Of a stretch of 64,000 nucleotides of DNA, positions 18,151-52,284 are shown in pieces. Numbering within the stretch: the stretch's first letter is position 1; each line of letters begins with the position of its first letter. A model generated the notes under the pieces. That model searched no databases and had not been told where the DNA came from. It saw only the letters and a list, made by a program, of their open reading frames with translations. The translations under genes and the position numbers were made by a program. Origin of the DNA: Phoenix dactylifera (taxonomy: Eukaryota > Streptophyta > Magnoliopsida > Arecales > Arecaceae); NCBI RefSeq assembly GCF_009389715.1, contig NW_024067919.1:274001-338000 (forward strand), in the 5' to 3' direction.

Positions 18151-20213
18151 TGTTGCCCAGTAGATACAACCCAAGAGGGGGGGTGAATTGGGTCTTTTAA
18201 AACTTTTATGCTACTTCTAAAACTTTATGATTAACTATGCTAAGTTGTATAGATGCACAGTGAAAGTTAAACTTAGCAAGGGTTTGATGTATAGACTTCG
18301 ACTTGATTAAATATGCTTGCAACTAAAGGATGTGTGGATAAGAATTAAGCAAGCAATTTATCTAAGTAAGTAAGTGTGTTAGTTAGACAATAACTAGAGG
18401 CATTACAAACACAAAGGACATATAGTGGTTCGGTGCACCCCAGCACCTACATCCACTCCCCAAGACCTCTTGGGAATTTCACTATAATCCTACCGATTAC
18501 AGCCGGTTGTTTTACAAGCTCACAACCCAACTTGTTGTTTTACGAGCGCACAACGAACTCGGTCGGTTTTCCCAGGCTCACCGACTAGAACCAACCCCGA
18601 TTGTTTTTCCGGGCTCACAATCAAACCCTTACACGTTGGTTTTACCCTCGGCTCACCAACAAACCTAAACCCCGTTGGTTTTCCCTTTGGCTCACCAACA
18701 AACCTTTAACCCCTTGATTCAATCCCTTGATTGAATCAAGTTACAAGATATTAAAACAAAGAATAAAAACAAATCAAAGCTTCTTAAACAAGCAGATATG
18801 ACAATATAAACAAATAGAGTAAAGAGAAGCCCTCAAACGAGTTTTGAAGATGGAGGAGCTCGGCTTCTTCTTTACTTGATCCTCCTCTGATTTGGCATGA
18901 AGTAGAGGATCCCCGAGGCAGCACACGGATGGAGAGGAAGCTTTCGGATTCACTTGGATGCTCTTCTTCTCTCTATTTCGTTTTGGATGGCCCTTTTGTG
19001 CTTATGGGAGATTTCCTTTGTAATCTCTTTGAGATCTCTTTCCTAGATGATCTCTCCCACTTCCATGAGTTCTCCCCTAGCTCTCTTCTTGTTTTTATAG
19101 CTTTAGATGGCGTGGAAACAAGAATATAGCCGTTAGAGACAAGAAAAAGAGCCGTTGGACACAGTCTGCATTTCCTGACAATATTACCGTTGGGATCGGA
19201 GTCGACTCGCGCGATCAGGAGTCGGCTCGCCTGTTGCAGGAGTCGGCTCGTGTTTTACCGGAGACGACTCGGTCACTGTTCCAAATTTGAATTAATGTGC
19301 TTGCCTCGACTGGGAGTCGACTCGACTTAACCTGGAGTCGACTCGCCAACTTCTGGAGCTGACCTGGCAATTTCGGAGTCGGCTCATCCACTGAAGTCCG
19401 TGGATCCAATTTTGAATTTGATCCACTCGAGTCGACTCGACTGTCCTGGGAGTCGACTCGAATCTCAGAGCCCGAACTCCCGATCCTCTGTCTTTTGGCT
19501 CGTCCAGTCTTGGAGTCGACTCGAACTTCCTCGGAGTCGACTCGGCTCTCAGTTTCCGAAACTTGGTCTTCTGCCTTTTGATGTGAAGCTGTCTTGGAGT
19601 CGACTCGAGCTGTCTGGGAGTCGACTCGAATCTCAGAGGCAGTAACCTGGTCTTCTGTCTGTTGATGGTCGCGGAGTCTCGGAGTCGACTCGTGCAATGC
19701 GGGAGTCGACTCGAATCTCAGAGTCCCAAAAATGCTTTCTGACTTTTTCCTTGTGTTCCGCTGAGAGTCGACTCTTGCTTTCTTTGGAGTCGACCTACCA
19801 ACCATCGGAGTCGACTCGCGTGCCACTGGAGTCGACTCGAATCTCAGAGTCCGAAAATCGTTCTCTGACTTTTCTGCCTGTGACTCCTAGGAGTCGACTC
19901 ATACTTCTCCGGAGTCGACTCATACTTCTCCGGAGTCGACTCGAATTCCACTGGAGTCGACTCGAAGACTGTTCTTTTGAATTTTTCTTTTGATTTTACT
20001 CCTCCAATTTGAATCCTTTGAACTTTAAACTTGGGCCAATAAATTGTAGCTTTCTTCCAACTTGAGAGCTTTGGAGGCCTTCTTGTGTTCTTCCAACTTG
20101 CTATGTTCCTTGCAAAATAAATATCTTTCTCCTTGCAACATAAACATTAGTATCTATACTTCAAGGTTTTGTGATCATCAAAATCAATCTATGAATCAAT
20201 CTTTGGGTCATCA
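18151..20213 (-). repeat. Left LTR (3' LTR) of the Copia element
   Basis: A 2,063-bp direct repeat of 27356-29418. It begins TGTTGCCCAGTAGATAC and ends GGGTCATCA on the plus strand. It contains the palindrome array at about 19195-19965. Confidence 0.95.
19195..19965. repeat. Palindromic GGAGTCGACTCG array in the left LTR
   Basis: About 19 exact GTCGAC-centred palindromes (GAGTCGACTC and close forms) plus about five degenerate ones. They often occur in pairs 21-22 bp apart, followed by AATCTCAGAG and a spacer, which gives a higher-order unit of about 90-110 bp. The same array is in the right LTR at about 28400-29170. Confidence 0.95.
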
Positions 20214-23200
20214 ATCTCCCCTTTTTTGATGATGACAAAACTTGGAGTATATGCAATATAAAAGATATTGATTTCTAGAAGTAATACATAGCTAAGTTGC
20301 ATGAAGTGGAAAACATATATATTTAAAAACATACTTCATGATAATGCTTTAGATTTAATCAGCTTAACACAATCAACATATTTAAATTTTAAGCTGATTT
20401 GTATTCAATTCAAAGTAATAAAGCATTCTGAGTATATAGCATATACTTAGATATTTCTCCCCCTTTTTGACAACATCAAAAGGATAGTGAAACATTAAGT
20501 ACAAAGATCAGAGCAGAACTCATCGAGTGTGAATTCAAGAGTTTTTTTTTTAATTTGATACCACAGATAGTTTTCTAATCAAGTGTAGGTGGAATCTTCC
20601 TTAGGTTAATTCAAGAAGTACCACAAATGATATTCAAAGAAAAATATGAGTGGAAATCTAACCTCTCTTCACTAAGTATGAAAGCTTGTTCATTTAAGAC
20701 CTTTTGCCCAATTTATTAAGTATTTTATCAACATGAGAGCAATTTAATTAATTTTCAGAGTAAAAGATCAAAACTTATATATTTGGAAAAACATATCATC
20801 ATGTTGGATCATTAATTCTTAATGACTTCAAAGTTCTTATATGATAATAAGAGCATTGGGGCACAAATACCAAAATATGAGTTTATGCAATTTTTGATAC
20901 ATCTTTGAGCTCTTTTAAAGACTTTCTTTTATTCCTTTAGAAAATAAGCATAATTTGATACATAAAATAATGAATTGGCACACAATTTAAGTTTTAAAGA
21001 TCAAGTCAATTAGGACTCATTAGTGAATATCAAAATAGATTTTCTAAAAGATACTCAAGAAAATTTTACACGTTATTCTCCCCCTTTTTCATTAAGTTAG
21101 AGGCTCTTTAAGCTCAACTTGCAATTTGGTTCATGATTTATGCATAAGATATACTAACCAAATAACACGCCTCAAGGTGTATCATAAAGATTTTCAGATT
21201 AAATTTCAGATGATACATATTGGAGAGTATTAGGATCATTTTTCATTTTGTATTCTTCCTCTCTCCTTTAGTTATAGATATACGCGATTAAGTTCCGTGA
21301 GACCTCTCCTTCTGAAATTTTCTTTCTCCCCCTCTATTGATCATTCTATTCAAGAGTTTAGAATTTGAAGATAATGTTCAATAAAATTGTCAATCTCAAA
21401 AATATATTTTCTATAAGTTTCAGCTCATTTTCATAAGACTCAAGGTTTGAGATAAGACAGCCTTTATAGAACTCATCTCAAGGTATAAACTCATTATATA
21501 ATTAAAGCAAGTCGTGCAATATAAGGAGGTTCATTAAAAACAATCCATAAAAAAGATACTGAATATCTGAAGCTCCCCCTCAAAAGATGCATTCTTCTTT
21601 AATCATTCTTTTCTATTGTTGAATTTCAGATTTTAATGATAAACGTGAATAAGACTGAAATTCTATGATATCGAGAATGTAGAGTAATCTAGTATTATTC
21701 AAAATTTGTGGCAATTACTCTTTCTAATCCTTCAAGAACAAGTTATGCTTTCTCTTAATCTTAGAGAAAATGTATAAAAATATTAAACAGAAAATGATTC
21801 ATTTTAAGCTCAGTTTCTTTCAAAAGCATTTACATTTTCTTTCTCTTAGAATCATTTGAGTGAGCTGAAATATTTCTAGCTTTAAGATCATTCACTCTAT
21901 ATATATTCTGATGGAAGTCTTGAAGAATGTAGGAGAGAAAAACATATAGATGATCATTGAGGTATATAGATTTATAGAACTCAATTACTTAATCACAGTT
22001 TTTCAGCAATGTATACATGAAACACAATAAATCCCTTTTTAATATCAAAATAAAATTATATATTTAGAAATTTTTGTTTGCAATCAAGATCATCGAAAGA
22101 CACATCATTTGGACCAATATTGGTACACTGTAAGGATAAGAAATGATATGTTTCAGATGCGTATCGGGTCAAACAATCAAGGCATCAGAATTATTCTATT
22201 TTTCTTAAACTGTAGTTTTTATATAGGAATCATATTGAGTTTAAAAATCAGATTCTGAATTTTATAAAGATTTTCAATAGAGGCTTTTAAATCATGATTT
22301 AAGATATGTATCTTTCACATTGAAGCTCATCTTAAATCACTAAGATTGAAAACACATATTTCAATAACATTAGAGCACTTTCAGAATCTTTATATTTAAT
22401 ATTGAGTTTCGATACACAATGGAGGATAATTTAATAAGTATTAGGACATTATGTATCAAAGTTAGGCAAGTAGAAAGATAGATCAAGATTAATTCATTCT
22501 GCCTAAATAGAGATATCTTTCTCTTCTCCTTTTTACAAATTTATTTAACTTTCAGATTTTAAAGATGATTGTGAACGACAAATCTGAAATTTCTTTTCAA
22601 TAATACCCAAAAATTTATGCAGTATTTCAAACATTCAATTAAATTATCTAAGCATGGAGCATTACAAAATATTGAGAACCCATAATTCAAAACATCATTC
22701 CACATGCAACATATATTATGTGTTAAGTCATGCATTAAGAACAAGCATGTCAAGGATCAAAATCAATTCTTTTCAAATAAACTCCCCCTATTTAAATATA
22801 ATCTTGCATTGATTTCATCCTTAAGGTGTGTTTCCAAGTGACAAAGAAATTGAATTGATTCTTCTTATATATTTTCATTTACTTTGTCTTTCATTTTTAC
22901 TTTCTTATGCTCTATACTGTATTTGCTCCCTATCCGGTGGAGTTGAAAGGGGCACGAGGTACTACCACTAGCCTCCCTCTTGTGCCGTCCCTAATATGCC
23001 CTACACCGAATAGTTGGGTCAAATAGTGCCGGGTACTACCACTAGCCTCCCCATTGGCACCATCCCTATGATGAGCAATATAGAAAGGTTAAAATGTTTA
23101 CTTCAAAACCTCCCTGTTTAAGTGTAATTAATTATGGATTTTATCCCTTCCAAAAGAATGCTCACACAAGTCTCACAAATGTGTCGAATATATTAAGTTT

Positions 23201-24399
23201 GTTTTGCTTTTCCTTAAGGTTGAAGTGTTTGCCTCTACTTGGATTTTACTTCTCTTGAATAATATCCATTTTCTTTTCTTTATCTCTCTCTCTTTTTGTT
23301 ATTCTCAAGTAATTTTCATGAGAGAGCAGAATAGAGAATTAATCTTACGTATCATATATATGTATATCATGCAAACAACATCTTCATTATGCTCAAGGAT
23401 TCATAACTTCTCACAAGTTATTTTACATTAACATTTTAAGCATATACTTGTGTATTTCATGGTTATGACATAGGCAAAGATATATTTTAGTTTGGGCAAA
23501 CCATGAAATAATTTCTAAAAGTATAAGTCAGTCAATACACATATAGACATGATATCAAAAAATTAATAATTAAAGAATTTAATCATGCCATAATAAGATT
23601 TAAGTTACTGACTTTGCTCAACTAATTTGTGAGAAAGGTATCTAAATTACCTATTCATTATATGTTCTTCAAGCCAAACTAGATTTCTTATGTGTGAACT
23701 TTTGGCTGAAGAAGATCCTCTCTCTTGTTTGCATGTGAATGTTTAGTATATCTTACATGAAGATATCCTTCAAGTTGAAATTTCTCATTTTTCTTTCTTG
23801 AAGGAAGGTCATTAGTTTCTTTAAGATACAAAGCATACATCCAACATATATATTTTTTTTAACTAGATGACTCAATATAAAATATGACAATAGTTGCATG
23901 TTGAGTCACTTTACTCAAGAGATTGCCTAAATATAAGCAAGCACATATCATTTGAACTAAAGAGATAGATTCATTAACCAAGATAGTTTAAGTCAATTTA
24001 GTTTAGATTCTATTTGCTTAAGATAATTATCAATAAGATATGTTAACTATGTTTTAATCAATTTATCTTAAACATTTGTTTCTATCAAAATTCAGATTAT
24101 GATTTATTTGTTATCAATAAAATATGATTAATTAAAGTTAGATTGAAGTCTTGCACAAGGTCACATAATGAGCATACAATCTGGTCTACTAGCTGTATGA
24201 TAGAATAATTATTCTATCATGCTTCAATACGGCTTTAACACAATAGATCTACTTTGCTCATCCTTTTTAAATTCTACAAGATGGGGTCATAGATATACCT
24301 TCTTCATGCCAATCTTCTATAAGAGTTTTCTTGTGGACTAACGTTGGTCAATGAAGATCCCCTTTCCTGTTTGTCTTAATTTGGAGTTTGAGAGAAGAT
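20214..24399 (-). other. 3' interior of the Copia element
   Basis: AT-rich interior between the 3' LTR and the reverse-transcriptase trace. It is decayed, with no complete gene. It includes a pair of GC-rich hairpins at 22951-23060. Confidence 0.6.
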
Positions 24400-25170
24400 G
24401 TTAATTCATTCATCATATTTCAAACTCACTTTGCAATATAACTCTTCATTAGTAGAACCAAAAATGATGTCATCAATGCATACTTTGAGCAAATAAGATA
24501 TCACAAATTCATCTTTTTGATGCATAGATTTATCACTATTACTTTCTATCAAAAAGGTTGCTTAAGCTTTTATATATCATGCTTTTGATGCTTGTTCTAA
24601 ATCACATATTGCTTTATCATATATGTAATGTGTATTTTTAAATATGGTGGTTATTTTTCATAGATCTCCTTTTTAATGAAGTAACCACATAGGAGTGAAT
24701 TCTACACATTCATTTGACAGAATATAAAGCTCATGAAGCAAGCACATGATAATGATGATCTTTACTTCTAATCATGCAAGAATCTTTATCAAGATCTATT
24801 TCATCTTTTCTTGATTTAATCTTTTAGTAGTCATCAATTTTTCTTCATTAAGTGCATTTCTGAAAAGACTCAATTTTGTTATACTTATTAACAAGTTTTC
24901 AGATTGTTATATGTAAAAGATTAACCATATACATATATAATTTGATTTTAGTATTTTGATAACAAATCATTAGCCTCATAAAGAATAAAATGACTTGATA
25001 TTTTTGCAACTAAAATCTTTTCATTGAATATTCTATATGCATTGCTTGATGAATGATATCCAAGAATAGACATATCTCTATCAAATTTGGCATTATTTTC
25101 ATAAGAGCATATCAAGCATAACATGTACGACTGAAAAATATGAAAGATATGTAATGGTTCATTTTCCATT
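24400..25170 (-). pseudogene. Copia pol remnants (integrase and reverse transcriptase)
   Basis: Minus-strand traces of Copia pol. The integrase C-terminal region is near 25000-25170 (DMSILGYHSSSNAYR-like). The reverse-transcriptase active-site block is near 24420-24500 (CIDDIIFGSTNEE). Both are broken and form part of the fossil element. Confidence 0.65.
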
Positions 25171-26162
25171 TTTCAGAAGATCAAAATTTTCATAAAAAAT
25201 AGATCTAATAGAAATCATATGTATGACAAGCAGTGATGATAGTCTTTTAAAAATTATTTAAGTAGATGACTAACATACATAATTGTCTTTTTCATTTCTT
25301 CAAGAATTCTATTAACCCTATTTTACTTATGATGTCCTTGGAGCTGAAATAATTGAATTTAATATTATTATCTGTATAACCTTAATCAGGATTTTGGTTT
25401 TCAACACTGTGCCATGATCTTCACAGTTTGGAAACCTTTTTCATTTGAAGCGCTTTTACGAGATTTAGTAAATACAGAAAAATACTTCAGTTTTATTTTC
25501 CAAGAACAAATCCAATGTAAGCTTTTGAAAACTTAGAGATGGAAACAACATCTTTAGATTTAGAAGTGATTTTTGTTTGTTTCCTTAGTTAGCATGCATA
25601 GCAAAACTTTGACCTTTAAGTAGATAATCTAAGTAAGCCTATAGCAAGGTCTTTTGAGATTAAGTACATACTAGCATGAGTTGATTCTATGTGCCAAGGA
25701 TGGTTTCTTTAATCTTGGTATTCATAGTGCATATATTCAAAAGCATACCAAGTACACATTATCATATCTATGATCAATAAACAATGATGCCATGGATAAA
25801 AACTCTCAATCAAGCATATAGAGAATTCATAGAATTAATCTTAATAATGATTAATCATTTAGCAACTTTATCCAATAGTGAGTAAAGTATCCTATAAAAT
25901 GAAGTGATTTGATTATATTTCCAAAAGTATTTTCTATATCACAAAATTGATCAACACATGCAATTCATACTTTAATCAACTAATAAAACAATTTCAGTAT
26001 GAGAGGATGCAAGAATTACTAATTTCATTATTTCTTCCATTTTAGTCACTTTTCTTAAGTATATTTTAAGTTTCACTCTTTAATATATGTCTAGAGCACC
26101 CAATGTCCAATTTAACATCTTTTGTTGGAGCCTTGAGTGCTAGACACACCTGCAGAAAATAT

Positions 26163-27293
26163 TTAGATTTTCAACTTAGGAACCCAAGCTCTTTTGGGTC
26201 CTTGCAGGTTAGCTATTATTGTTCCTTTTGGAACCCATATTTTCTTAATAGCTATTTTGTCCATAGGCTTGCAGATTTTAGGACTACAAGAAGTGTATTT
26301 CTGCATCTTCTTATTAAATTTAACGAACATGGATTTAACATGAGTGGTAGATAACCCTTCAGTTTTCTGTTTTTGCCTTTTAGGTTTATCAAATTTGCAA
26401 TGTACAGATTTAGGAACAGAAGTGATTTTGCATAATCTTTGTTCCTGTTTATCAGCATTATAAGAATCTATTTTAAAATGATTAGAAACTGTTTTAACAA
26501 ACATATTATTGAAAGATTTTTGGGTGTACCAAGGTTGACATCCCAATCCAATATTATCAAATTCAGCTCTTTGATTATTTATCATTAGATTCAATTTTTC
26601 AGAGCTCAAAGTAAATCTTTCAACAACAGGTTTTAATTTGTCAACTTCTTTAGTTAATCTTTTGTTATCTTCTGAAAGCAATTCATTATTTTTCTTAAGT
26701 TTATCATGGCTTTCAGTGAGAAGTTGGTTTTTCTGATTTAGTTCTTTATTTTTCTTAATTAAGATTTCAGTTTCATTTACTAGGATTTTCTTTTCATTCT
26801 TCAGGTTCTTGTTTTTACAAATGAGTTTCTTATGTTCTTGATACAAATCAGAAAAGGCATCATGGAGTTCATCAAATGTAAAATTGCTTTCAGTTTCAGC
26901 ATGTACCTCTTGTGCCACCAAGCACGGATTTTCAATATGATACTGCTCTCCTTCTACACATGATGTTTCAGATTTGTTAGTGCATTCATATTTGTCTTCA
27001 AGCATATTCCATATTTCTTTAGCAGTCATGCAAGAAGATATGCAATTAAACTCATTCCTATCTAGTGCACAATATAGTAGGTTCATGGCTTTTGAATTTT
27101 GTTGAGCCATTTTCTCATTATGACTAGTGTTTGTGTGTGTTCCATTGACTATAATGCTCCATAAACTATAATCAACTGATTGTATAAAAATGCGCATGCG
27201 TATTTTCCAATGTGTATAGTTTATGCCATTAAATAGTGGAGGTGTATCAATTGATTGTCCTTCTCCTAGAAAACTATCTATTTGAGTTGTCAT
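26163..27293 (-). other. Copia gag-like region (UBN2-type)
   Basis: The gag-like part of the fossil Copia element, beginning just inside the right LTR. The N-terminal portion (PPLFNGINYTHWKIRM, MTAKEIWNMLEDKYE) is the gag-polypeptide domain of plant Copia elements. The middle is a long coiled coil rich in Lys, Asn, Glu and Leu. Its position next to the primer-binding site sets the element's orientation. Confidence 0.8.
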
Positions 27294-27355
27294 GATCTTT
27301 GGCTCTAGTCGGTTAAGACTACAAATAATATTTGAGCACCTGCTCTGATACCACT

Positions 27356-29418
27356 TGTTGCCCAGTAGATACAACCCAAGAGGGGGGGTGAATTGGGTCT
27401 TTTAAAACTTTTATGCTACTTCTAAAACTTTATGATTAACTATGCTAAGTTGTATAGATGCACAGTGAAAGTTAAACTTAGCAAGGGTTTGATGTATAGA
27501 CTTCGACTTGATTAAATATGCTTGCAACTAAAGGATGTGTGGATAAGAATTAAGCAAGCAATTTATCTAAGTAAGTAAGTGTGTTAGTTAGACAATAACT
27601 AGAGGCATTACAAACACAAAGGACATATAGTGGTTCGGTGCACCCCAGCACCTACATCCACTCCCCAAGACCTCTTGAAAATTTCACTATAATCCTACCG
27701 ATTACAGCCGGTTGTTTTACAAGCTCACAACCCAACTTGTTGTTTTACGAGCGCACAACGAACTCGGTCGGTTTTCCCAGGCTCACCGACTAGAACCAAC
27801 CCCGATTGTTTTTCCGGGCTCACAATCAAACCCTTACACGTTGGTTTTACCCTCGGCTCACCAACAAACCTAAACCCCGTTGGTTTTTCCTTTGGCTCAC
27901 CAACAAACCTTTAACCCCTTGATTCAATCCCTTGATTGAATCAAGTTACAAGATATTAAAACAAAGAATAAAAACAAATCAAAGCTTCTTAAACAAGCAG
28001 ATATGACAATATAAACAAATAGAGTAAAGAGAAGCCCTCAAACGAGTTTTGAAGATGGAGGAGCTCGGCTTCTTCTTTACTTGATCCTCCTCTGATTTGG
28101 CATGAAGTAGAGGATCCCCGAGGCAGCACACGGATGGAGAGGAAGCTTTCGGATTCACTTGGATGCTCTTCTTCTCTCTATTTCGTTTTGGATGGCCCTT
28201 TTGTGCTTATGGGAGATTTCCTTTGTAATCTCTTTGAGATCTCTTTCCTAGATGATCTCTCCCACTTTCATGATCTCTCCCCTAGCTCTCTTCTTGTTTT
28301 TATAGCTTTAGATGGCGTGGAAACAAGAATATAGCCGTTAGAGACAAGAAAAAGAGCCGTTGGACACAGTCTGCATTTCCTGACAATGTTACCGTTGGGA
28401 TCGGAGTCGACTCGCGCGATCAGGAGTCGGCTCGCCTGTTGCAGGAGTCGGCTCGTGTTTTACCGGAGACGACTCGGTCACTGTTCCAAATTTGAATTAA
28501 TGTGCTTGCCTCGACTGGGAGTCGACTCGACTTAACCTGGAGTCGACTCGCCAACTTCTGGAGCTGACCTGGCAATTTCGGAGTCGGCTCATCCACTGAA
28601 GTCCGTGGATCCAATTTTGAATTTGATCCACTCGAGTCGACTCGACTGTCCTGGGAGTCGACTCGAATCTCAGAGCCCGAACTCCCGATCCTCTGTCTTT
28701 TGGCTCGTCCAGTCTTGGAGTCGACTCGAACTTCCTCGGAGTCGACTCGGCTCTCAGTTTCCGAAACTTGGTCTTCTGCCTTTTGATGTGAAGCTGTCTT
28801 GGAGTCGACTCGAGCTGTCTGGGAGTCGACTCGAATCTCAGAGGCAGTAACCTGGTCTTCTGTCTGTTGATGGTCGCGGAGTCTCGGAGTCGACTCGTGC
28901 AATGCGGAAGTCGACTCGAATCTCAGAGTCCCAAAAATGCTTTCTGACTTTTTCCTTGTGTTCCGCTGAGAGTCGACTCTTGCTTTCTTTGGAGTCGACC
29001 TACCAACCATCGGAGTCGACTCGCGTGCCACTGGAGTCGACTCGAATCTCAGAGTCCGAAAATCGTTCTCTGACTTTTCTGCCTGTGACTCCTAGGAGTC
29101 GACTCATACTTCTCCGGAGTCGACTCATACTTCTCCGGAGTCGACTCGAATTCCACTGGAGTCGACTCGAAGACTGTTCTTTTGAATTTTTCTTTTGATT
29201 TTACTCCTCCAATTTGAATCCTTTGAACTTTAAACTTGGGCCAATAAATTGTAGCTTTCTTCCAACTTGAGAGCTTTGGAGGCCTTCTTGTGTTCTTCCA
29301 ACTTGCTATGTTCCTTGCAAAATAAATATCTTTCTCCTTGCAACATAAACATTAGTATCTATACTTCAAGGTTTTGTGATCATCAAAATCAATCTATGAA
29401 TCAATCTTTGGGTCATCA
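27356..29418 (-). repeat. Right LTR (5' LTR) of the Copia element
   Basis: A 2,063-bp partner of 18151-20213, with about eight differences by eye over the full length. It holds the second copy of the GAGTCGACTC palindrome array. Confidence 0.95.
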
Positions 29419-32290: not shown

Positions 32291-32616
32291 TTACTTAGTT
32301 TATTAATTATTTTTTGGTTTAATTAAATTATATTTAGTTAAGTAATTAATTTAAAATTTGTTATTTTTTGGTTCAATTGTAGATTGGTTGTGACTTCACT
32401 ACTTCAGCGGTTCGGCACTATTCGGCCTCTTCTCGCTGTCGAGTTCGGAACTATTCCACCTCTTCTCGACACAATTAAGTTCGGCACTACTTGTCGGGAC
32501 CCGAGTTTGTTTTTCTTGACACAATTAAGTTTTATCATTTTTAACTTTTTTATATTTTGATTTGTTTGTGGTAGTTTTTTAATTGCTTAGTTTGATAATA
32601 TTATTTATAGATTAAA

Positions 32617-35107
32617 ATGTCTAATAGAAAATATGACTGTGGATATGAAAAACTCAAAAAAAAAAGAAAAATCGATAAACTCATTCAATCTCAAAAAGGA
32701 GCTCTGGATAGATTTGTTGTTACAAACAAACATAACACTACATCAAATTCAACTCAAGAATTAGCAATAGAACAGGCACCCGAAATAGAGTTAAAAAATG
32801 AGATTGCCAGTGAAACAATATCTAGTGAAGAACACAATGGAGAATCAGATAGAGATAGGATAAACAAGGAAAAAGATTGTGAAACTAGTTCTATTCCTAC
32901 AAATTTATATGATCCTGGTCAATGGAAAATAATTGATACAAAATTTAGAGATCTAATAGTGGAAAGAGGTCCAATTAGGGATTATGATTTTCATTTTCCT
33001 AAGGATGAAAACAATAGACACTTTTCTACGATATATTATATTCGTAAGTTACCTAATGGTGAAAAACATGATAGAAAATGGTTAGTGTATTCGAAAGATT
33101 TGGATAGAGTATATTGTTTTTGCTGTAAATTATTTGATTCAAAGTCTAGCACGAGTCAATTAGTCAATGAAGGAAGTAGGGATTGGAAAAATCTAGGTAT
33201 CAAGCTTAAAAGTCATGAAACAACTAATGAACATATCATTAGCATGAATAGGTGGATTGAGTTAGAAGTGAGATTGCTAAAAAATAATACAATTGATAAA
33301 AATCTCCAAGAACAAATAAACCAAGAGAAGGATCATTGGAAAAAAGTTCTATTTAGAATTATTGCTGTCGTAAAAAATCTTGCAAAAAATAATTTAGCAT
33401 TTCGAGGAAAGAATGAAAAGATCTATCAAAGCAATAACGGAAATTTTCTAAGTTTTATTGAAACGATTGCAGAATTTGATCCAATAATGCAAGAACATAT
33501 TCGACGCATTCAACATGGTGAAATTTACAATCATTATTTAGGTCATAATATTCAAAATGAATTGATTCAAATGTTAGCATCTGAAATTAAAGCTATAATA
33601 CTTAAAAAGATTAAAGAAGCAAAATATTTTTCTGTAATACTTGATTGCACTCCTGATGCAAGCCATCAGGAACAAATGACCCTAGTTTTAAGATGTGTAG
33701 ATACTTCAACAAGTTCAGTAAAAGTAGAAGAATATTTTTTAGAATTTTTAGAAATAGATGATACCTCTGGAAAGAGCCTTTTTAATGAACTTATAAATAT
33801 AATAGAAAAACATAAACTTGATGTTAATGATATAAGAGGACAAGGGTATGATAATGGATCTAATATGAAAGGAAAACATCAAGGTGTACAAAGAAGATTA
33901 TTAGATATAAATCCTAGAGCATTTTACACACCATGTGGATGTCATAACTTGAATTTAGTATTATGTGATACTGCTAACTCGTGTCCTAAAGCTATATCTT
34001 TTTTTGGAGTGATACAACGGATTTATATCTTATTTTCTTCTTCTACAAAACGATGGAAAATTTTACAAGATAATATATCTACATTAACTCTTAAACCCTT
34101 GTCACAAACACGTTGGGAAAGTCGTATTGAAAGTGTCAAAGCAATTAAAAACCAAGCTCCTAAAATAAGAGATGCTTTAGTTCAATTAGCGGAAACTAGT
34201 GAAGATCCTAAAATAAAGAGTGAAGCCACATGTTTAGCTACATATGAGATTGAAAATTTTGAATTTTTATTAGGCATGAATATTTGGTATGATATATTGT
34301 TTGCTGTTAACTCAGTTAGTAAGATTTTACAATCTGAAGACATGCATATTGATGTTGCTATAGATCAATTAAAAGGTCTTCTTTCTTATTTGAAAAGTTA
34401 TAGGGAAAATGGATTCATGAATGCTTTGAATTCATCTAAAGAAATTGCAAATAAAATGGAAATAGAACCTATATTTTGTGAAAAACGTGTGATCCGTAGA
34501 AAAAAAATATTTTGATGAAAATAATGATGATGAGATAACAAGATCAGCTGAAGAATCTTTTAGAATTGATTACTTTTTATATATAGTAGATCAAGCTATT
34601 TTTTCAATTCAAAATAGGTTTGAACAATTTACCGTATATGAAAATGTTTTTGGTTTTTTGTTTAATTTTAGAAAGTTAAAATCTTTGAATGAAGATGATT
34701 TGAAAAAGTGTTGTCTTAATCTTGAAAACTTTTTAAAGCATGGTGAATATTCTGATATTGATGGTATTGATCTGTTTTCAGAGTTAAAAATTTTAAAAGA
34801 ATTTTTACAAACAGAAACTAGTACCCCTATTGATATTTTAAGTTTTATAAAAAAAACAGATTCTTTTCCAAATGCATGCATTGCATATAGGATATTATTA
34901 ACAATACCTGTAACAGTTGCTTCTGCTGAAAGAAGTTTTTCAAAATTAAAATTGATAAAATCTTATTTGCGATCAACTATGTCACAAGAAAGATTAAATG
35001 GATTAGCTATATTATCGATTGAAAATAGTATTTTAATGGATCTTGAGTATAAAAGTTTAATTAGTAATTTTGCTTCTCAAAAAGCTAGGCGAATTATTTT
35101 TAAATAA
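32617..35107 (+). pseudogene. hAT transposase (zf-TTF/DUF4371), one frameshift
   Basis: Transposase of the ZMYM/zf-TTF hAT group. Residues 1-90 are Lys/Glu-rich. A TTF-type zinc finger follows ([14 protein letters not shown] ... [10 protein letters not shown]), then the DUF4371 core ([47 protein letters not shown]) and the C-terminal hAT dimerisation domain (IPVTVASAERSFSKLKLI ... RLNGLAILSIEN). The first frame runs 32617-34515. At about 34500, in a run of eight A, one extra base moves the rest (DENNDDEITRSAEESF onward, to 35107) into the next frame. Apart from that break the protein, about 830 aa, appears complete. Length and order match this family. The single homopolymer shift could be a real recent mutation or a sequencing error. 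Confidence 0.85.
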
Positions 35108-42040: not shown

Positions 42041-43652
42041 ATGTTGGCTGGAGAGAAGACATCAACATCATCATCACCATCTTCGGAATTAGATCCGCTG
42101 CTGAGGGATCTTACAGAGAAGAAGCTGAGCTTTCAGAGAAACGTTGTTTCATTGGCAGCGGAGCTTAAGGATGTGCGAAGTAGGTTGGCTTTGCAGCAAG
42201 AGTCATTTGCCCGAGAAAGCCGAACAAGACAGGTTGGTTCCAAGTTTTTTCAGCATCTCTGAAGAGGCTAATTTTATGATTCTGGTGTATGGGAGTGGGA
42301 ATGAAGTATGTTGGGCTTTCCACAGGTAGCAGAGTCGAAGGTGACGGGCATGGAGGAGGAGATTGGTAGGCTGCAGAAATGTTTGGAAGAGAGGAACGAG
42401 CAATTGAGAGCATCTACATCTACTTCAGAGCAGGTTAGAATCTGCTTGATTCTTTTTTATTCCTTTCCTATTGAAATTTGAATGTTCACTTTCTAGAATG
42501 GACTGAATGAGGTTGTGAAAATTTTTCTTGCTTTATCTGTAGGGCTATGAAATTTCTTCTTGCTTTATATATGGATGTTGACTTTAAATATCCTGAGTAA
42601 TTTAATTAAAAGAATTTGAGAGTTGGTTGGTATGAGAACAAACACATGATTATGAGAGGGAAAAGAAAGTTCATCTAGGCTTTCAGAATCTTTTCTTATA
42701 TTGCATGTTAAAGTAGTTTCAATTAGCCCAATATATGTGTATACTAAGTTGGAAATCAACCCCAAACTTTGTTTCATGTATATGTTTTGAGGAAAAAAAA
42801 AATTCTGTAGTCTAATATCCTGTTAAAACATACTAGGTATTTCCTTTGTACCTTTCAGTGTCTAATTGAAATATATATGCCACTTCTAGCATTAGAGCAT
42901 TATTCAACCCCTCTCTTCCATTTATTTGCATGCCGATATCTTCATTACTGGGTTCTTTTATGTTACCCTTTTGTTTTAATTGTATTATTTTTCTCTTCTA
43001 TTTGATACTAGTAACGATCACCTGGATTTAGGGATATGACACTCTTCTATCTTCTAATGTTTGCAATCATTTTCAATTCGCTATTGGAAAATTGTGGAGA
43101 AACCTAGTTTCATGCGGGTACAAAACATTGCTCTTGGGAGAGCCTTTGGTAACAATTCCTCAAAAACTTTATGTATATAACTTATCTATTGCCCATGTAT
43201 ATATGTATTTATACAGCATAGACATGGGTCCCAACAATTAATGAATCTCTCTCTCTTTTTTAATTTTTGTTGTAATCTAACATGGTGTTGGGAGAGTGCT
43301 GTTTTGAGACGATGAGAATAAGGGGCGGGATAAGCTGGTTCCAACATTTAATGAAACACTTTCTTTATTCTCTGATGTAGCACTGGGAGAGTGGTCAGCA
43401 TTTAATGAAATATTTTCTTTTTTCCTTTTTAAGCTCCGACGTGGCATTGTGAGAGTAATCGTTTAAAATGATTAAACAGAGGGACAGGTGTAGGCATGGG
43501 TATTATGCCTCACTACATTAATTTCTTTTTTCTTTTTCCAAACAACTGTTGTTAACAGTAAATTGGAAAGCTGGACATGCTGGGATTCGTGCGGAACGGA
43601 CAGTTCTGGAGGCGACTGGATTTACCTCTAGATTTGGTCGAATGGAGCGTAG

Positions 43653-43688
<36 letters not shown>

Positions 43689-44144
43689 CATATGTATATA
43701 TGTGTGTGTGTGTGTACAATTATATGTGTGTTGTATATATATATATATGTATATATGTGTGTGTATATATATATAGACACATACATACGAACATACACAC
43801 ACACACATACATATGTATATATACATACATATATACAGACACACACACACACACACATATAGATAGATAGATACACATGCGCACACACCCACACCCACAC
43901 ACACATATATATACACACATATATACCTATAAGCCAGCCGACTTATATACTAATAGGTAGAAAGAATAATGCTTCCTATTTTAGATTGTTTATCCATTTT
44001 GCACCCCCCTCTTTAGATTGTGTTATCCATCCCCTCCTCCTCCCCCCCACCCCCCCTCTCTCTCTCTTCTTTTCTTGTTTGACTATTTGAAGATTTCATA
44101 AACATTTTTTTTAGAGATTTCTGTTTTAATAGAGATTGTGTTCC

Positions 44145-44229
<85 letters not shown>

Positions 44230-46989
44230 AAAAACAACAACACACACAAAAAAAGAAAAAAACATCTTTGTTCATGCACTGCTATATTTTGATTCAGGGA
44301 ACATTCGAATACTGTGTATGCTGTAGGGATTTTAGAAGAGGCAAATTATTTTTTATTTGAAATTTTCAGCAACTCTGAGTCTAAATAGTTCTTTTGATTT
44401 GTTGTCTTATTGTTTGCCAATTTGTGTATACTGCCATTTCTTTATAACATAGTTTGCTTTTGAAAAATTTCATCCGCATTTCGTATCATCATCTTGCCAT
44501 TCAAATTCTGATAGTTTGTACCAAGCAGGTTGCTGTTCATGGGAAATTATCTGTGGTCTTTGATGTTTCTTAGATGCAAGTCTGAGAAGAATAATTTGAG
44601 AATCAATAAATGTTATGTTATCCTGCAGGTTGCTATAAATCTAGATAGCTTGCAGTATTTTTTTTGGCATCCTTTTGGTTCTTAATGATTTGTTTCTTGG
44701 CATTACTCCGATACATGACTCCTATGTTGCTATCTTGCACATTTTTGTCTCCCATCTTGCTCATGTGAAAACTTTCAGTTAAATTACTTCTCCATTATCT
44801 TGTGTTTAAGTTGTCAATTAATTTTCTCAAAAGACCTCCCTTATCATTACTTATATGCAGTATCTTAAGGAGTTGGATGATTTGAGATCCCAGCTTTCAG
44901 TTACTCAAGCCACTGCAGAGGCTAGTGCGTTGTCGGCTCAATCAGCAGAAGCCCAGTGCTTGACCTTATTGAGAGAACTAGATGAGAAAAATACTTCACT
45001 AAAAGAGCATGAGATCCAAGTCAATAAGCTAGGAGAGCAGTTAGATAATCTGCAAAAGGATCTCCAAGCAAGAGAGTTTTCACAAAGGCAACTGAAAGAT
45101 GAAGTTTTGAGAATAGAGAAAGAGATCATGAATGCAGTTGCAATAGCTGGAGCTAAAAAAGATTGCGAGCTTCGGAAGATTTTGGCTGAAGTTTCCCCCA
45201 AGAATTTTGAGAATATCAGCAAGCACCTGGATGCTAAAGATGCAGAGATTGCCAGAGTAAGAGATGAGATCAGGATCTTGTCTGCACACTGGAAACATAA
45301 AACCAAAGAGTTAGAATCTCAGGTAATTCCTAATTTTTGGGCTAGTACAATGTGCTGTTCCTTTTGCAGCAAGGCAACATTTCTTATATGTATTTTGCTG
45401 GTTTGTTTGTAAAATAGTTAGAAAAACATCGAAGGGCTGATCAGGAATTGAAGAAGAGAGTATTGAAGCTTGAATTCTGTCTTCAAGAAGCACGGAGCCA
45501 AACACGAAAACTTCAAAGGGTAATTCATATTCTGATCTTTTAAATCATTACATCTTTTGGTTCCTCTCATTGTTTTCTATATTACTATGCTGAGGTTCCT
45601 TAAAACGACAAAAAAAGAAATGTGAGCTTTCTTGCTTTATCTAATTGAATTGATGTCCAACTAGCAAACAAGTGTAAACTGCTTGCTAAATTTGTATTTT
45701 CTTTGTGATATGCAATATTCAAGCATGGAGATTACGTACCTATTCTGTGTACGTTATGTGTCCTGGACATCGATGGAGATGTTCAGTCTACAAATTTGTA
45801 CAGGGTATTATATTCTCCAAGTTTTGAAAAGAAAAAAAAGATATTCTATAATTACTTGATTGTATTCATTCCTTTTCTATTAATATATCAAGTAATATTA
45901 GTTACAGATTTTTTTTTTATGAAAAGTTATTTTTTTTATTTTAAAAATAGCATGCAGCATTTGTTTTTTAAAAAATTAATCTTCTATCTACCTATAGGGG
46001 AGTCTCATGCAATATACGGAACAACTTTATGTTTAAGGGGGGAAGGATGCATTGCTAACCTATTAACTTTTGATGAAAATATGCTGTCTAGTGTGCCGTC
46101 AAGTATCCATGCAGACCATGAGTCATATGGCTATCTGTCTTAGGATGATTTCCTTATGTTTCGTCATTTTACTTAATGTTCTTTAGTGTGCTTTTATTAA
46201 TCTAGTGGGCTTTAGCTAATGAATAAAATGTGTGCAAAATCTATGGAATTTGATTTTTTTCCTTATAATATTGTTATGACAATTTATTTCAAAAATGCAT
46301 GAATAGACTGAGTAAATTTACAATTTTAGTTTTTCTTTGGTAGAAAGCCTTTGCCAATTTCATTCAACAAATCAGCTTCTTACGAGTCAAATCAGTTCCT
46401 CTCCATCTCAATAATGGACATTAAGAACGGTGTAAAGTAAAAGGGCCAAGTTACAAACTTGTATTGGTAGCATGTTTAGCCAGCAACTTCAATTAGTAAT
46501 AGGGTTTGGAAGATGAGATTTACTTGAATGTTTAGATATCAGCATTCTGAACAGTTGCAAGCACTCCTTGATGGTGCGTCACAGCATATGAGAATTCAAT
46601 TTGCCTTTGCCATTGTAAAAAAAAAAAAAATTATTTAAATTATGGTGATTGTTTGGAAATATTAGGTGCCTTTTTCTTACTACCTATTCTTGTTTAAATT
46701 TGGTGTCTTTAGCACATCATATATAAACTATGGAAAATAGTTGTATACATAAGAATCTTGTCTATTTATCAAACATTTAGACTCTTTCTCATTCCTCTTG
46801 GTGTTTTCTATTATGTGACAGATGGGAGAAAAAAGAGACAAGGCTCTAAAAGAACTAAGAGATCAATTGGCAATGAAGCAGCAGAATGGGGCTGGTTGCA
46901 ATGACAAGCAGAACTTCTGGGAGAGCTCTGGTTTCAAGATTGTTGTTTCTATGTCTATGTTGGTCTTAGCTGTTTGTGCAAAGCGATAA
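42041..46989 (+). CDS. Nuclear envelope-associated protein (NEAP-like)
   Basis: NEAPs are plant-specific coiled-coil proteins of the inner nuclear membrane that interact with SUN proteins and affect nuclear shape. Five coding exons: 42041-42232, 42326-42433, 44861-45322, 45418-45519 and 46822-46989. All junctions are phase 0 and GT-AG (192+108+462+102+168 nt = 343 aa plus stop). The N-terminus ([20 protein letters not shown]) and the long heptad-rich middle (for example [58 protein letters not shown]) match Arabidopsis NEAPs. The C-terminus, [18 protein letters not shown], is the single tail membrane helix with its short basic end. The start is the first ATG in frame; sequence upstream is non-coding. 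Length is normal for the family. It faces the haspin gene tail to tail. Confidence 0.92.
42434..44860 (+). other. NEAP intron 2 with microsatellites
   Basis: A 2.4-kb intron. It contains a (CT)n(TA)n(TG)n/(CA)n compound microsatellite at about 43650-43935 and a C74 run at 44146-44219 followed directly by about 14 A. No nested gene seen. Confidence 0.8.
44146..44219 (+). repeat. C74 homopolymer
   Basis: Seventy-four consecutive C, then an A run. Preceded by other C-rich sequence near 44020-44060. True length is uncertain for a homopolymer of this size. Confidence 0.9.
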
Positions 46990-47813: not shown

Positions 47814-48252
47814 TGTGAGGACCTGTGCGGGCGTGTATTTAGTCCCACATCGATTATTCGCTGGATAGATCTTGGGTACTTATACAGGATGAAGGAACCC
47901 AAATAATACCTGCCGGCTAGCCATTTTGGGTGAGATCTTGGGTTGTTACAAATGGTATCAGAGCGGACTCGGCTCATAACTTATGTGGACTAGGGGACAC
48001 TGCAGCACAAATTTATTGGGGTTGACCACGGACCGATCGTGGTGTTTGTGATTAGATTTGAATGGATTCGAACCTTTAGCCTGATGAGGATGTCAGGGCT
48101 TGAACGGGGGGAGTACGTGAGGATCTGTGCGGGCGTGTGTTTAGTCTCACATCAGTTATTCGCTGGGTAGATCTTGAATACTTATACAGGATCAAGGAAC
48201 CTAAATAATACCTTCCAGCTAGCCATTTTGGGTGAGATCCTGGGTTGTTACA
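47814..48252 (+). mobile_element. TRIM (miniature LTR retrotransposon)
   Basis: A 439-bp non-coding LTR-type fossil. Terminal direct repeats of 137 bp lie at 47814-47950 and 48116-48252. A primer-binding site for initiator Met tRNA (TGGTATCAGAGC, 47953-47964) follows the first repeat, and a GGGGGG purine tract precedes the second. The target duplication is GTACT at 47809-47813 and 48253-48257. The two repeats differ at about one tenth of positions, so the insertion is much older than the Copia element above. The primer-binding site places its sense strand as plus. Confidence 0.92.
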
Positions 48253-48257
48253 GTACT

Positions 48258-48694
48258 ACTGAGACGAAGCATGGTATCCGAAGGCAACAAGGAGAGATAT
48301 CCAACCTAAAATCCATGGCATGTTCATGGTGCGAAGAGTGCTCAAGCTTGAGAAGGGTTCTGCGTGTAGCAAAGTAAAACAGCGTTAATGCAAAGATCCA
48401 GGAACTGCATTGGGAAAATGATAGGTAACAGATACATTTCTTGTAGCTCTCTGGACAATGGACAGCCAATTAAGCCCCTGATTGCGTCCTCAATATGCCA
48501 TGGTTATGCTCAGGAAAAAGATGGACCAGATCAAAATTAATCAAAGGATCACTGACATCTAGGCACACTAGATTTATCCATAAGTATAGATATGAAGCAG
48601 CTGTTCCATACATCTGAAATAGCATTGATGCTGAAAGATTACAGAAAGATAAACATCAAAATGAGGCACGATGAATCTCAAAGAGAGCAGTTGA
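48258..48694. other. Spacer between TRIM and CACTA element
   Basis: No gene or repeat recognised. Confidence 0.4.
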
Positions 48695-48839
48695 CACTAC
48701 AGGAAAATGGGCCTTTTTCGATGCTAGGAGAAAGCGTCGGAAAAAATTTCACCGCTCGTACATTTGCCGACGCTTTCATTTAGCGTCGGAAATTCTTAGC
48801 ATGCTGTATAGATCCCAACTAATAAGGAACCAAGCACCA

Positions 48840-49612
48840 GCCAGTCCCAGCTTGGTCATATCGAGACGGCCGGGTGGGGGCGAGGCGACGAGCGCTCTCT
48901 CTCTCTCTCTCTCTCTCTCGCTCTCTCGCTGGCTCGCCGTTCTGTGGCTTTTAAAGAAGAGAAGGCGGACGGTAAAAAAAGCTCTCGCTGGCTCTATTTC
49001 GTACCCTTGAAAGCTCGGGCTTCTTTTATCGTTGTCGCTTCATTAGAAGGATTTTGTCTTCCTCTTCCCCTCGAGCGAGCGGGTGATCTCGGAAAGGTAT
49101 GGATCTTTACCCCCATTCCTTTGGTCTTCTTGGAATTAAATCGGCGTAATCTTGCGTTTCTTCTCGGATTTTCGAACCAAATAAGGGTTCTTTTCTGGTT
49201 GTTATGCTGATTTTGGATTTCCTATTTTCTTGATCAGTTTTAAGGGTTTTCTTTCTCTTTGCCGATGGAAATAGGTGGCTTTCGGCTCGGATTATGTAAT
49301 GTGGAAGTATCTGGTGTTGATTTCAGTCGGATCTTTAAACCCAGGTTTTTCTGTACGGATCTTCCTCGTTTTCTGGGGTTTTGTTGGTCTGATTTCGTTG
49401 CACTCTGTTTTCTTGTTTTCCTATAAACTTTTTGTTCGATTTTCTGGTATGTATATACTTCAAATGATCTGAGGAACGCAGAACGTTGATCTGCGTCTGT
49501 TGATATAATTATGATGTCGGTTTTCTTTTTCCTTGATTTCTAGTCTTTGGGGTTGCTACAGGGGGCTGGTTGAGAGAGTGGTCCTAACTTTGTACATGTT
49601 TGTCGGATCAAA
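48840..49612 (+). promoter_or_regulatory. Captured 5' region of the HVA22-like gene
   Basis: The captured DNA seems to include the donor gene's 5' UTR: a (CT)n run at about 48895-48925, then GC-rich leader with a GGAAAGGTATGG donor-like site near 49097, and further leader down to the ATG at 49613. Whether a working promoter was captured cannot be read from the sequence. Confidence 0.4.
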
Positions 49613-50065
49613 ATGATGGCAAATTTTGTTACAAGATCCTTGGCGTAAGTAATCCTGTCTTGAATTAGTTTTAGTTTTCTGGCTGTAACATTACATCCGG
49701 ACAGTAGATCTTCGTTTTATCTGTTATGTTACTTGTCTTCAGAAATCCTTTTCAAGAAAGTGAATTTAGATGAGAACTCAGAGCGTTTCTGTCTATAGGT
49801 TGGTTCTTGGCTATGCTTATCCGGCATATGAATGCTTCAAAACTGTGGAGTTGAACAAGCCGGAGATTGAGCAGCTGAGATTCTGGTGTCAGTATTGGTA
49901 CGTTCTTGCTACTTGTCAGGTAAAGGATTTCATTTTTCAATTCTATCTTGCTTCTAGTAGTTACTTGTGACTAAAAAGAGAGTTTTGAATTCTTATTCAT
50001 TTTTCTAGGATCTTAGTTGCTGCGCTGACCATCTTTGAGAGGGTTGGAGAATCTTTTATTTCATG
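49613..50065 (+). pseudogene. HVA22-like (TB2/DP1) fragment inside the CACTA element
   Basis: HVA22/TB2/DP1 proteins are ER-membrane-shaping proteins. Exons 49613-49644, 49799-49897 and 50009-50065 have GT-AG introns and compatible phases. They read MMANFVTRSLA, then LVLGYAYPAYECFKTVELNK and PEIEQLRFWCQYW, then ILVAALTIFERVGESFIS. This covers only the first 62 codons of a protein normally about 130-300 aa; the hairpin membrane region is started but not finished. Retained introns show DNA-level capture, not retroposition. The next downstream exon in view belongs to another gene (50443-50592). Splicing to it would leave TG joined to A, a stop right at the junction. Confidence 0.88.
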
Positions 50066-50442
50066 GTAATGTAGATCAGTGGTTTGGAAAGTTGGGATCT
50101 ATACAGCATGCTTTCTTTACATTTATTCTCCTCTTCCTGCTACAACTTAGGGTCGGAAATTAATTTCCAGAAAGTGAGCATTTTAGTTTCACTGATAAGC
50201 AAGAAAGAGGGCATAGATTTATCTTAGCTGGGTCGAAATGCCTATACTCTGATACTGTAATTTCATAGATTTTGAGGAACAAGGTAACCTGAAATATAAA
50301 TTATCTTCAGATTAACATTATCGATGGTGTTAAATTTCAGGAATTCTTTATTTGGTTAATGTTTGGTTGAAAAGTTCAATTTTATTGCACATTTGATGAG
50401 GAACTGAGATTGATGTTTGGAATTTTGATTGGCATCCTGCAG

Positions 50443-50868
50443 ACTTATCTGGGAATTCAGATTTTTCGGTTCTACTTCAAATGCACCAGATGCTCGGCTG
50501 AAATTGCATTCAAAACAGATCCTCAGAATTCGGACTATGTTGTTGCATCGGGAGCATCCCGAAATTTTGAGCCTTGGCGGGAAGAGGACGAAGTGAGTGA
50601 TTTACATAATGCTCCGTAGCATGTTATATTGCTGGGTTTGACTAGTACATGTTCTGGGGTATTCTTGATATTTGATATTTTCGCAATAGAATTGTGGTTT
50701 CAATTCCAATATCTTATGTTGTGCTTTCACCAGGCAGTAGAAAAAGAGAAGAAGAAAAGAGCTGCTGAAGAGATGGGGGATGCGATGAAGTCACTGGAAA
50801 ACAGAGCAGTGGATTCAAAGAGAGATATGGACATACTTGCAGCACTAGAAGAAATGAGGTCTATGAAG
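50443..50868 (+). pseudogene. YJU2/CCDC94 (CWC16) fragment inside the CACTA element
   Basis: YJU2 is a splicing factor of the Prp19-associated complex that acts at the first catalytic step. Exons 50443-50592 ([50 protein letters not shown]) and 50734-50868 (AVEKEKKKRAAEEMGDAMKS, LENRAVDSKRDMDILAALEE, MRSMK) are both phase 0 with GT-AG borders. CxxC in KCTRC is part of the family's zinc-binding region. Only about 95 residues of a protein of some 300 aa are present; the N-terminal and C-terminal parts are missing. The fragment is in frame within itself but out of phase with the upstream HVA22 piece. Confidence 0.88.
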
Positions 50869-51117
50869 GTATAAAACCTTTATTAGGTATGTTAGAAGAG
50901 TGAGAAGGGTTTTCCCCCAAAAAAAGTGTAGATCAAGTGGGAAAGGGAAATAGTTTTCTTCAATCATTTTCCATATTGAGGGTTTAAATATATTCAGCGA
51001 TTTCTCCCTCCTCAGGTAAATAACTATATGTATTTGATGACTATACATAATTATTATTTTGCATGAGTTAATGATTTTCATATTCCTAACTTCTAAAGTT
51101 TCTTTTTTTTTTTTTAG

Positions 51118-51180
51118 GTTCCTGATACTTCAACAGCTCGCAGAGATGATGATGGGGCTGAATGCAGTCCCTGATATTTT
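51118..51180 (+). pseudogene. Possible third captured exon, origin unknown
   Basis: A strong poly-pyrimidine tract and TTTTAG acceptor (to 51117) precede GTTCCTGATACTTCAACAGC. In frame with the YJU2 exons it reads VPDTSTARRDDDGAECSP and a stop at 51172-51174. This does not look like the next part of YJU2. AT-rich, 3'-UTR-like sequence follows, in which a GTAATGCAGGTTCATATT block occurs twice (about 51246 and 51343). It may be the last exon of a third donor gene. Confidence 0.35.
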
Positions 51181-51419
51181 TTAGACTGTTATTTAATGAG
51201 TTTTATATGTATCTTTCTTATATTTTTCAAAATACATTGTAAATGTAATGCAGGTTCATATTTGTAATTCTAAACTTATGTAAATTTAATCTTATATGAC
51301 AATATGAATGTTTCGAATGATCTGTATATTTGTCTTGATGTAAATGTAATGCAGGTTCATATTGCTATAATATGTTTTTTAATATGCTTTTGTTTCTTTT
51401 TTTTTTAAAAAAAATCTAC

Positions 51420-51800
51420 TCCCGACGCTTTAAAGCGTCGTTAAAAACAATCTTTGGCACGGGCTGGCACGCCATCGCCGACGCTTAAAAAGCGTCGGTA
51501 AAAATATCTTTAGGCGACGCTATACAAGCGTCTTTATAGCATGGTTTTACCGACGCTTTAAAGCGTCGGCGAAAACCCAGGCTTTTTTTGGACTTTCCTG
51601 ACGCTTTAAAGCGTCGGCGAATCTCAATTTGCCGACGCTTTCATTAGCGTCGGGAAAGCCCTGTTTTTGCCGACGCTTTCTATTGGCGTCGGCAAAAATA
51701 TTTGCCACTCCGGTATCGCCAACGCTTTTACGACGCTTCTGTTTGCGTTGCGGGAACTTTAGCCGACGCTTATAAGCGTCGGTAAAGATTATAAAAAGCG
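51420..51800. repeat. Right subterminal palindrome array of the CACTA element
   Basis: Repeated inverted units of the form CCGACGCTTTAAAGCGTCGG, separated by 20-40 bp, with variants in the loop (TTTCATTA, TTAAAAA, TATACAA). They are typical of CACTA subterminal regions and much denser here than at the left end. Confidence 0.9.
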
Positions 51801-51827
51801 CCGGGAAAGATGAGATTTCTTGTAGTG

Positions 51828-52284
51828 TGAGTACTATAGATATCTAAGAAGCTTTAGATAATGTATGTTCAACAACATGATTTACAAAAAAGAAACACTT
51901 GTAGCAGTCTTAGTCACAGAATTAATTTGTTATGATATTCAGGTGAATGGACAATACATATGCTTATGGATATAACTTAATAATCTACAGGTACAAAACG
52001 GAAATACTTGTAGCTGACAATGCAATTCCAACTGCTGCATCCCTTGAAAAATCAAAGCCCTTGGGGAGATGCCCGGGGTTCAACTAAGTCTCGTCATCTT
52101 CGTACTGTAACTATCTGAGGCAAATTGCATTTGAAGAGCACATAAACCTAATTTTACTTCAGCTGCTCTTTGGAACTAGCCAAAGGATTGATCCAGTTGC
52201 CAAATTGCATCTTGAGGATAAATTCATGATTTTGTACTAACAGATTTACCATTCTAATTTTGTGCTTTATTCAAATCTGTTTGA

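Follow-up and report, generated by a model that had tools for sequence, protein, structure and literature searches.

RESULTS

Genes and repeats of the window

The 64-kb window analyzed here (the whole stretch of Phoenix dactylifera, or date palm, DNA) holds a transposable element whose parts are listed in Table 1, together with genes and other repeats. A coiled-coil gene resembling NEAP2 (a nuclear-envelope-associated protein) lies upstream of the element on the plus strand (42062 to 46986). Its coding matches fall at 42062 to 42433, 44849 to 45325, 45418 to 45522, and 46819 to 46986, the last of which is ~1.7 kb before the element. Two candidate readings of this gene were rejected: its coiled-coil open reading frame (ORF) at 44822 to 45412 was considered as HUB2/BRE1-like, but the database match is NEAP2-like, and a location of the element within an intron of the gene is out for the coding part, given the position of the last coding match.

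Several other features of the window were noted. Positions 47815 to 48252 look like a TRIM-type mini-retrotransposon, with two 136-bp direct repeats that are 90% alike and start 302 bp apart; just past the first of these is tggtatcagagc, which we take to be a primer-binding-like motif. The stretch from 19215 to 29091 is probably an LTR retrotransposon whose long repeats are young: the same repetitive 223-amino-acid (aa) frame occurs at 19215 to 19886 and at 28420 to 29091, one letter apart and with starts ~9.2 kb apart, and a copia-type gag ORF (26163 to 27401) lies between the two. Two different hAT-type transposase genes of two ORFs each are found at 726 to 2895 (minus strand) and 32611 to 35107 (plus strand). 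A disease-resistance-like gene on the minus strand (13328 to 14930) has Rx_N and NB-ARC domains at 13866 to 14930 and a resistance-protein winged helix at 13328 to 13759; since these domains are in separate ORFs, the gene is either intron interrupted or broken. The ORF at 12733 to 13338 had no Pfam match at an E value of 0.001.

Table 1. Parts of the date palm element and its borders, with positions counted in the 64-kb window
Feature	Positions	Strand	Remark
TGA target-site duplication, left copy	48692..48694		
Nonautonomous CACTA element (Pack-CACTA)	48695..51827	+	3133 bp
Left terminal inverted repeat	48695..48706	+	CACTACAGGAAA
Left subterminal repeats	48728..48792	+	AGCGTCGG / CCGACGCTT units
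TTCTT, left flank of 23-bp inverted repeat	48793..48797		
Perfect 23-bp inverted repeat, left arm	48798..48820	+	AGCATGCTGTATAGATCCCAACT
Upstream part of HVA22 with 5' leader and its intron, probably captured	48821..49612	+	Inferred from position
HVA22 coding exon	49613..49644	+	MMANFVTRSLA
First coding exon of P0001	49770..49919	+	End of HVA22 intron 1, HVA22 exon, and 22 bp to cryptic donor GTAAAG
HVA22 coding exon	49799..49897	+	Regular donor after 49897
HVA22 coding exon	50009..50065	+	Skipped in P0001
23-bp inverted repeat, right arm	50090..50112	-	24 bp past donor of HVA22 exon 3
TTCTT, right flank of 23-bp inverted repeat	50113..50117		
YJU2 exon	50443..50592	+	TYLGIQIF...REEDE
YJU2 exon	50734..50868	+	AVEKEKKK...RSMK
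Terminal exon, used in P0001	51118..51174	+	VPDTSTARRDDDGAECSP, then stop
Right subterminal palindromic repeats	51422..51782	+	10 CCGACGCTT motifs (12 in the window)
Right terminal inverted repeat	51816..51827	-	CACTACAAGAAA
TGA target-site duplication, right copy	51828..51830		

CACTA-type ends and subterminal repeats

Both ends of the element read CACTACA(A/G)GAAA, and its two terminal inverted repeats, compared on opposite strands, are identical at 11 of their first 12 positions. Only two zero-mismatch CACTACANGAAA sites occur in the window, and these are the element ends. When up to one mismatch was allowed, 5 sites were found versus 1.46 expected, a number reached in 3 of 100 shuffles, so the terminal motif taken alone is weak evidence for a CACTA element. 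Every exact CCGACGCTT motif of the window (12 of 12, with 0.05 expected) falls within the element, 2 at the left end and 10 at the right. The flanking TGA copies are in direct orientation and make up a duplication of 3 bases, the usual length of a CACTA target-site duplication; a 5-nucleotide (nt) duplication is absent. Taken together, the ends, the duplication, and the subterminal repeats identify a CACTA element, as inverted CACTA/G ends, a 3-bp duplication, and subterminal motifs near both ends are features of the CACTA (En/Spm) type. All three had been claimed in a first-pass annotation of this DNA (CACTA termini, TGA duplication, and subterminal palindromes), and each was recovered here. 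One copy of the element is present in the window. A literature text search for the string CACTACAAGAAA matched three works, one of which deals with a radish CACTA. The element also contains a perfect 25-bp direct repeat, TGTAAATGTAATGCAGGTTCATATT, at 51238 to 51262 and 51339 to 51363 (starts 101 bp apart).

Coding content was surveyed by scanning each of the 33 stop-to-stop ORFs of at least 45 aa in the element against Pfam. Three had matches above the cutoff (two to YJU2 and one to HVA22), a STEEP1 match stayed below it (15 of 27 bits), and no transposase domain was detected in any of the 33. The absence of a transposase domain from ORFs of this size is as for a nonautonomous element, which would have moved with transposase supplied by a related element.

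Pieces of two host genes in the element

Three exons with GT-AG borders throughout encode 63 residues, MMANFVTRSLA...VGESFISW, the final W being completed by the base past the donor. These residues matched the Pfam domain TB2_DP1_HVA22 (E = 1.2e-9) and were identical at 63 of 63 positions to the date palm "putative HVA22-like protein g" (P0121, 289 aa). The region upstream of the first of these exons (48821 to 49612) probably derives from HVA22 as well, to judge from its position. Two further exons encode 95 residues with a match to Saf4_Yju2 (E = 4.5e-43), and 93 of the 94 aligned residues were identical to date palm YJU2 (P0003, 307 aa). The sole aligned difference from P0003 is an A in place of an E that is common to the other four aligned proteins, so this change probably arose within the element. 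At the exon end, residue 95 is K in the element and in the other three proteins but E in P0003. The YJU2 piece lacks the N-terminal segment carrying the first CxxC pair and keeps the second pair. With three HVA22 and two YJU2 exons, all on the plus strand, the earlier claim of intron-containing exons from two unrelated genes is borne out.

Intact-gene date palm proteins for both sources, YJU2 (P0003) and HVA22 (P0121), were present in the database. P0003 is encoded on a contig of 131,988 bp and P0121 on one of 29,301,675 bp, while the chimera described below (P0001) is on one of 369,157 bp. The YJU2 and HVA22 genes were likewise on contigs of different sizes in coconut (119,963,539 and 57,291,198 bp), in Ensete (57,115,473 and 58,102,257 bp), and in Canna (87,737,480 bp versus 77,102,761 and 83,288,178 bp). 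An ancestral neighborhood of HVA22 and YJU2 is therefore unlikely; contig sizes could differ through differing assemblies, which makes this good rather than final evidence. At the protein level, the element thus has a host-gene interior for which longer source proteins exist on other date palm contigs, in agreement with its first-pass description as a chimeric Pack-CACTA of two unrelated host genes. The HVA22 residues are 98% identical to oil palm HVA22 and the YJU2 residues 96% identical to coconut YJU2. Since the matches within date palm are closer (63 of 63 and 93 of 94), the captures probably took place after date palm had diverged from oil palm and coconut, a sequence-based claim with few residues behind it.

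A predicted date palm protein spans both pieces

The best match of the YJU2 search was an NCBI entry, predicted "splicing factor YJU2-like isoform X2 [Phoenix dactylifera]" (P0001, 163 aa). Isoform labels such as X2 denote computed models. P0001 reads MRTQSVSVYR-LVLGYAYPAYECF...RSMK-VPDTSTARRDDDGAECSP and is matched letter for letter by four exons of the element (its first coding exon, the two YJU2 exons, and the terminal exon in Table 1) joined at GT-AG junctions. The protein starts within HVA22 intron 1, uses a cryptic donor after 49919 that lies 22 bp into HVA22 intron 2, and skips HVA22 exon 3, with a chimeric intron at 49920 to 50442; the peptide of the joint lies around WYVLATCQTYLGIQ. 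Removal of intron 1 combined with the same joint gives a 164-aa product beginning MMANFV. Among the best 120 of 807 matches, P0001 alone is aligned along 56% of the query, which takes in the terminal exon, and the others cover 47 to 51%, so no other protein among these 120 shows the P0001 ending. The peptide encoded at 51118 to 51174 had no Pfam match in two frames at E values up to 10.

The first-pass annotation had placed the chimeric intron at 50066 to 50442. This position did not hold for a coding product: the regular HVA22 donors (after 49897 and 50065) both leave TG and the YJU2 exon begins with ACT, so that joining either donor to 50443 creates an immediate in-frame TGA. Both 49897/50443 and 50065/50443 were accordingly rejected as coding joints, their products ending after 43 and 62 residues, respectively. 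Splicing at 50065/50443 may still produce a chimeric RNA, one that would encode no fusion. The accompanying proposal of a potential new transcription unit is supported as a possibility, and the predicted P0001 is exactly this chimera. In such a unit, the captured HVA22 leader would drive transcription, and a fusion of 163 to 164 aa would result when the cryptic donor after 49919 is spliced to the YJU2 exon that starts at 50443.

A 23-bp inverted repeat brackets the HVA22 piece

The HVA22 piece is bracketed by the arms of a perfect 23-bp inverted repeat, the left of which begins 8 bp past the left subterminal repeats. When the internal region was shuffled 200 times, no inverted repeat exceeded 17 bp, versus the 23 bp observed, and no other perfect inverted repeat of at least 20 bp with arms within 5 kb occurs in the window. 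TTCTT is found outward of both arms in direct orientation; agreement of a random pair of 5-mers in this region has a probability of ~0.002. The 23-mer has no further exact copy in the window. This arrangement of a 23-bp inverted repeat and TTCTT around the HVA22 piece is a new observation here. The first-pass annotation had put forward either two independent captures or a single capture of a locus rearranged beforehand; the repeat suggests a separate history for the HVA22 piece.

Three accounts of how the pieces were joined were weighed. The first, to which we give about an even chance, is template switching or inversion at capture: 23 bp from HVA22 intron 3 would have been placed in inverted copy at the other border by gap repair or by inversion of the segment between staggered cuts. 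The arms are at or close to both HVA22 borders, as this account would have it, and the excerpted text of PMC8277862 describes template switches and microhomology in the gap filling of animal Pack-TIRs. It explains the arms but not the TTCTT direct repeat, and it does not predict that the same donor base ends both arms.

All of these features would be explained by a nested insertion, in which a YJU2-bearing CACTA element was invaded by an HVA22-carrying inverted-repeat element of 1315 bp (48798 to 50112) that duplicated TTCTT. The perfection of the arms, their length beyond that reached in shuffles, their being the sole such repeat in the window, and the low chance of TTCTT directly beside both of them all speak for this reading, which we nevertheless consider doubtful. 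The window holds no second exact copy of the 23-mer, and the position of the left arm, 8 bp from the last left subterminal unit, is not required of a random insertion. In addition, we know of no plant transposon superfamily that combines 5-bp duplications with AGCATGCTG ends.

An unlikely third account is the fusion of an HVA22-bearing Pack-CACTA with an adjacent YJU2-bearing one, the two being comobilized by their outer ends. This follows a model that the excerpted text of PMC8903248 ascribes to Catoni et al. (2019) and for which it presents compatible examples among Pack-TYPE elements; the model predicts that end remnants persist at the joint. A left subterminal 10-mer, GTCGGAAATT, recurs once, at 50152, at the HVA22/YJU2 joint. 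However, comparison of the joint with the element ends gave no significant likeness (a top score of 25 among 4 orientations, equaled in 1 of 60 single-base shuffles, with 16 tests over 4 regions), and an internal terminal inverted repeat is absent, the one-mismatch CACTACANGAAA site at 50843 falling in a YJU2 exon. A CACTA remnant at the joint was therefore rejected as a feature, the shared 10-mer at 50152 being the only likeness.

The most far-reaching composite that could be drawn from these observations is that the HVA22 piece arrived inside an undescribed inverted-repeat element, one that makes 5-bp duplications and landed within a CACTA element bearing YJU2, and that the composite makes a spliced HVA22-YJU2 protein. 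We regard this combination as highly improbable; if true, it would mean that two different transposons together built a new gene in date palm.

DISCUSSION

The locus is very probably a date palm Pack-CACTA that acquired pieces of an HVA22-like g gene and of YJU2 in the same orientation and inserted, with a TGA duplication, near a NEAP-like gene. A CACTA-ended transposon without recognizable transposase would have taken up the probable upstream region and the first three coding exons of the HVA22-like g gene, as well as two middle exons of YJU2 oriented as the HVA22 piece, and would then have inserted past the NEAP-like gene, ~1.7 kb from the end of its coding part. The element is not of a new kind but shows a known process in well-preserved form. 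It offers a clean and apparently young case of exon shuffling by a palm CACTA element, with near-identical source proteins still present, and it lends itself to testing: how the pieces were joined should be legible base by base at the donor loci, the 23-bp repeat being a readable trace.

The first-pass annotation had held that CACTA elements capture host genes mostly from one source at a time, which runs against what is in print: the soybean CACTA element Tgm-Express1 (Zabala and Vodkin) carries five genes (PMC1947982), and maize Pack-CACTAs held the most distinct loci (PMC8903248), both according to excerpts of these reports. As excerpted from PMC1947982, Tgm-Express1 resembles the date palm element in bearing fragments of several unrelated host genes with exons and introns retained, and its transcripts, which are chimeric, undergo alternative splicing, and in many cases carry premature stops, can be likened to those envisaged here. 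It differs in its five sources and 5.7 kb, compared with two identified sources and 3.1 kb in date palm, and in its location in intron 2 of F3H with an effect on flower color, whereas the date palm element is outside the coding part of its neighbor. The isolated Tgm-Express1 transcripts start at the F3H promoter, while in date palm the captured leader may drive transcription.

Excerpts of PMC8903248 provide further likenesses: CACTACAA ends in Arabidopsis Pack-CACTAs; host coding DNA inside the Pack-CACTAs of all three plants (Arabidopsis, maize, and rice), with several loci often contributing in maize; and copy numbers that are mostly low in rice and in maize. Unlike the TGA of the date palm element, with its 3 bases, the duplications stated there for rice and maize CACTA elements are of 5 nt. 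In the same excerpts, three Pack-TYPE cases among four RNA-checked genes had merged with host exons, but the expressed Pack-CACTA Zm-CACTA-181 had not. The animal Pack-TIRs of PMC8277862 share captured filler with traces of repair at its borders; they are animal elements, and the excerpted text makes no mention of a 23-bp inverted copy bracketing the filler. Among the literature matches listed on CACTA gene capture, Pack-CACTA, and date palm there was no published account of the present element. The matches listed for Phoenix dactylifera, CACTA, and gene capture included no title on gene capture in palms, those for HVA22 and CACTA no title on capture, and those for Pack-CACTA no palm title.

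The fusion most likely has no selected function, because it retains no more than the beginning of the HVA22 domain together with the second CxxC pair of YJU2; its HVA22 match reaches 21.6 bits, below the Pfam cutoff of 27.2. A functional young gene, i.e., an expressed chimera whose protein is maintained by selection, would fit the open frame of 163 to 164 aa over four or five exons and the protein isoform listed by NCBI. We judge it very unlikely: the frame depends on a cryptic donor, the YJU2 piece is without its N-terminal part including the first CxxC pair, the HVA22 match falls short of the cutoff, and, should the element be young, its open frame says little. If the element is transcribed, many of its products may be truncated, and a putative dominant-negative or small-RNA effect on the donor genes is possible. 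For annotation, the locus means that the predicted product of a transposon is filed publicly as a YJU2-like splicing factor.
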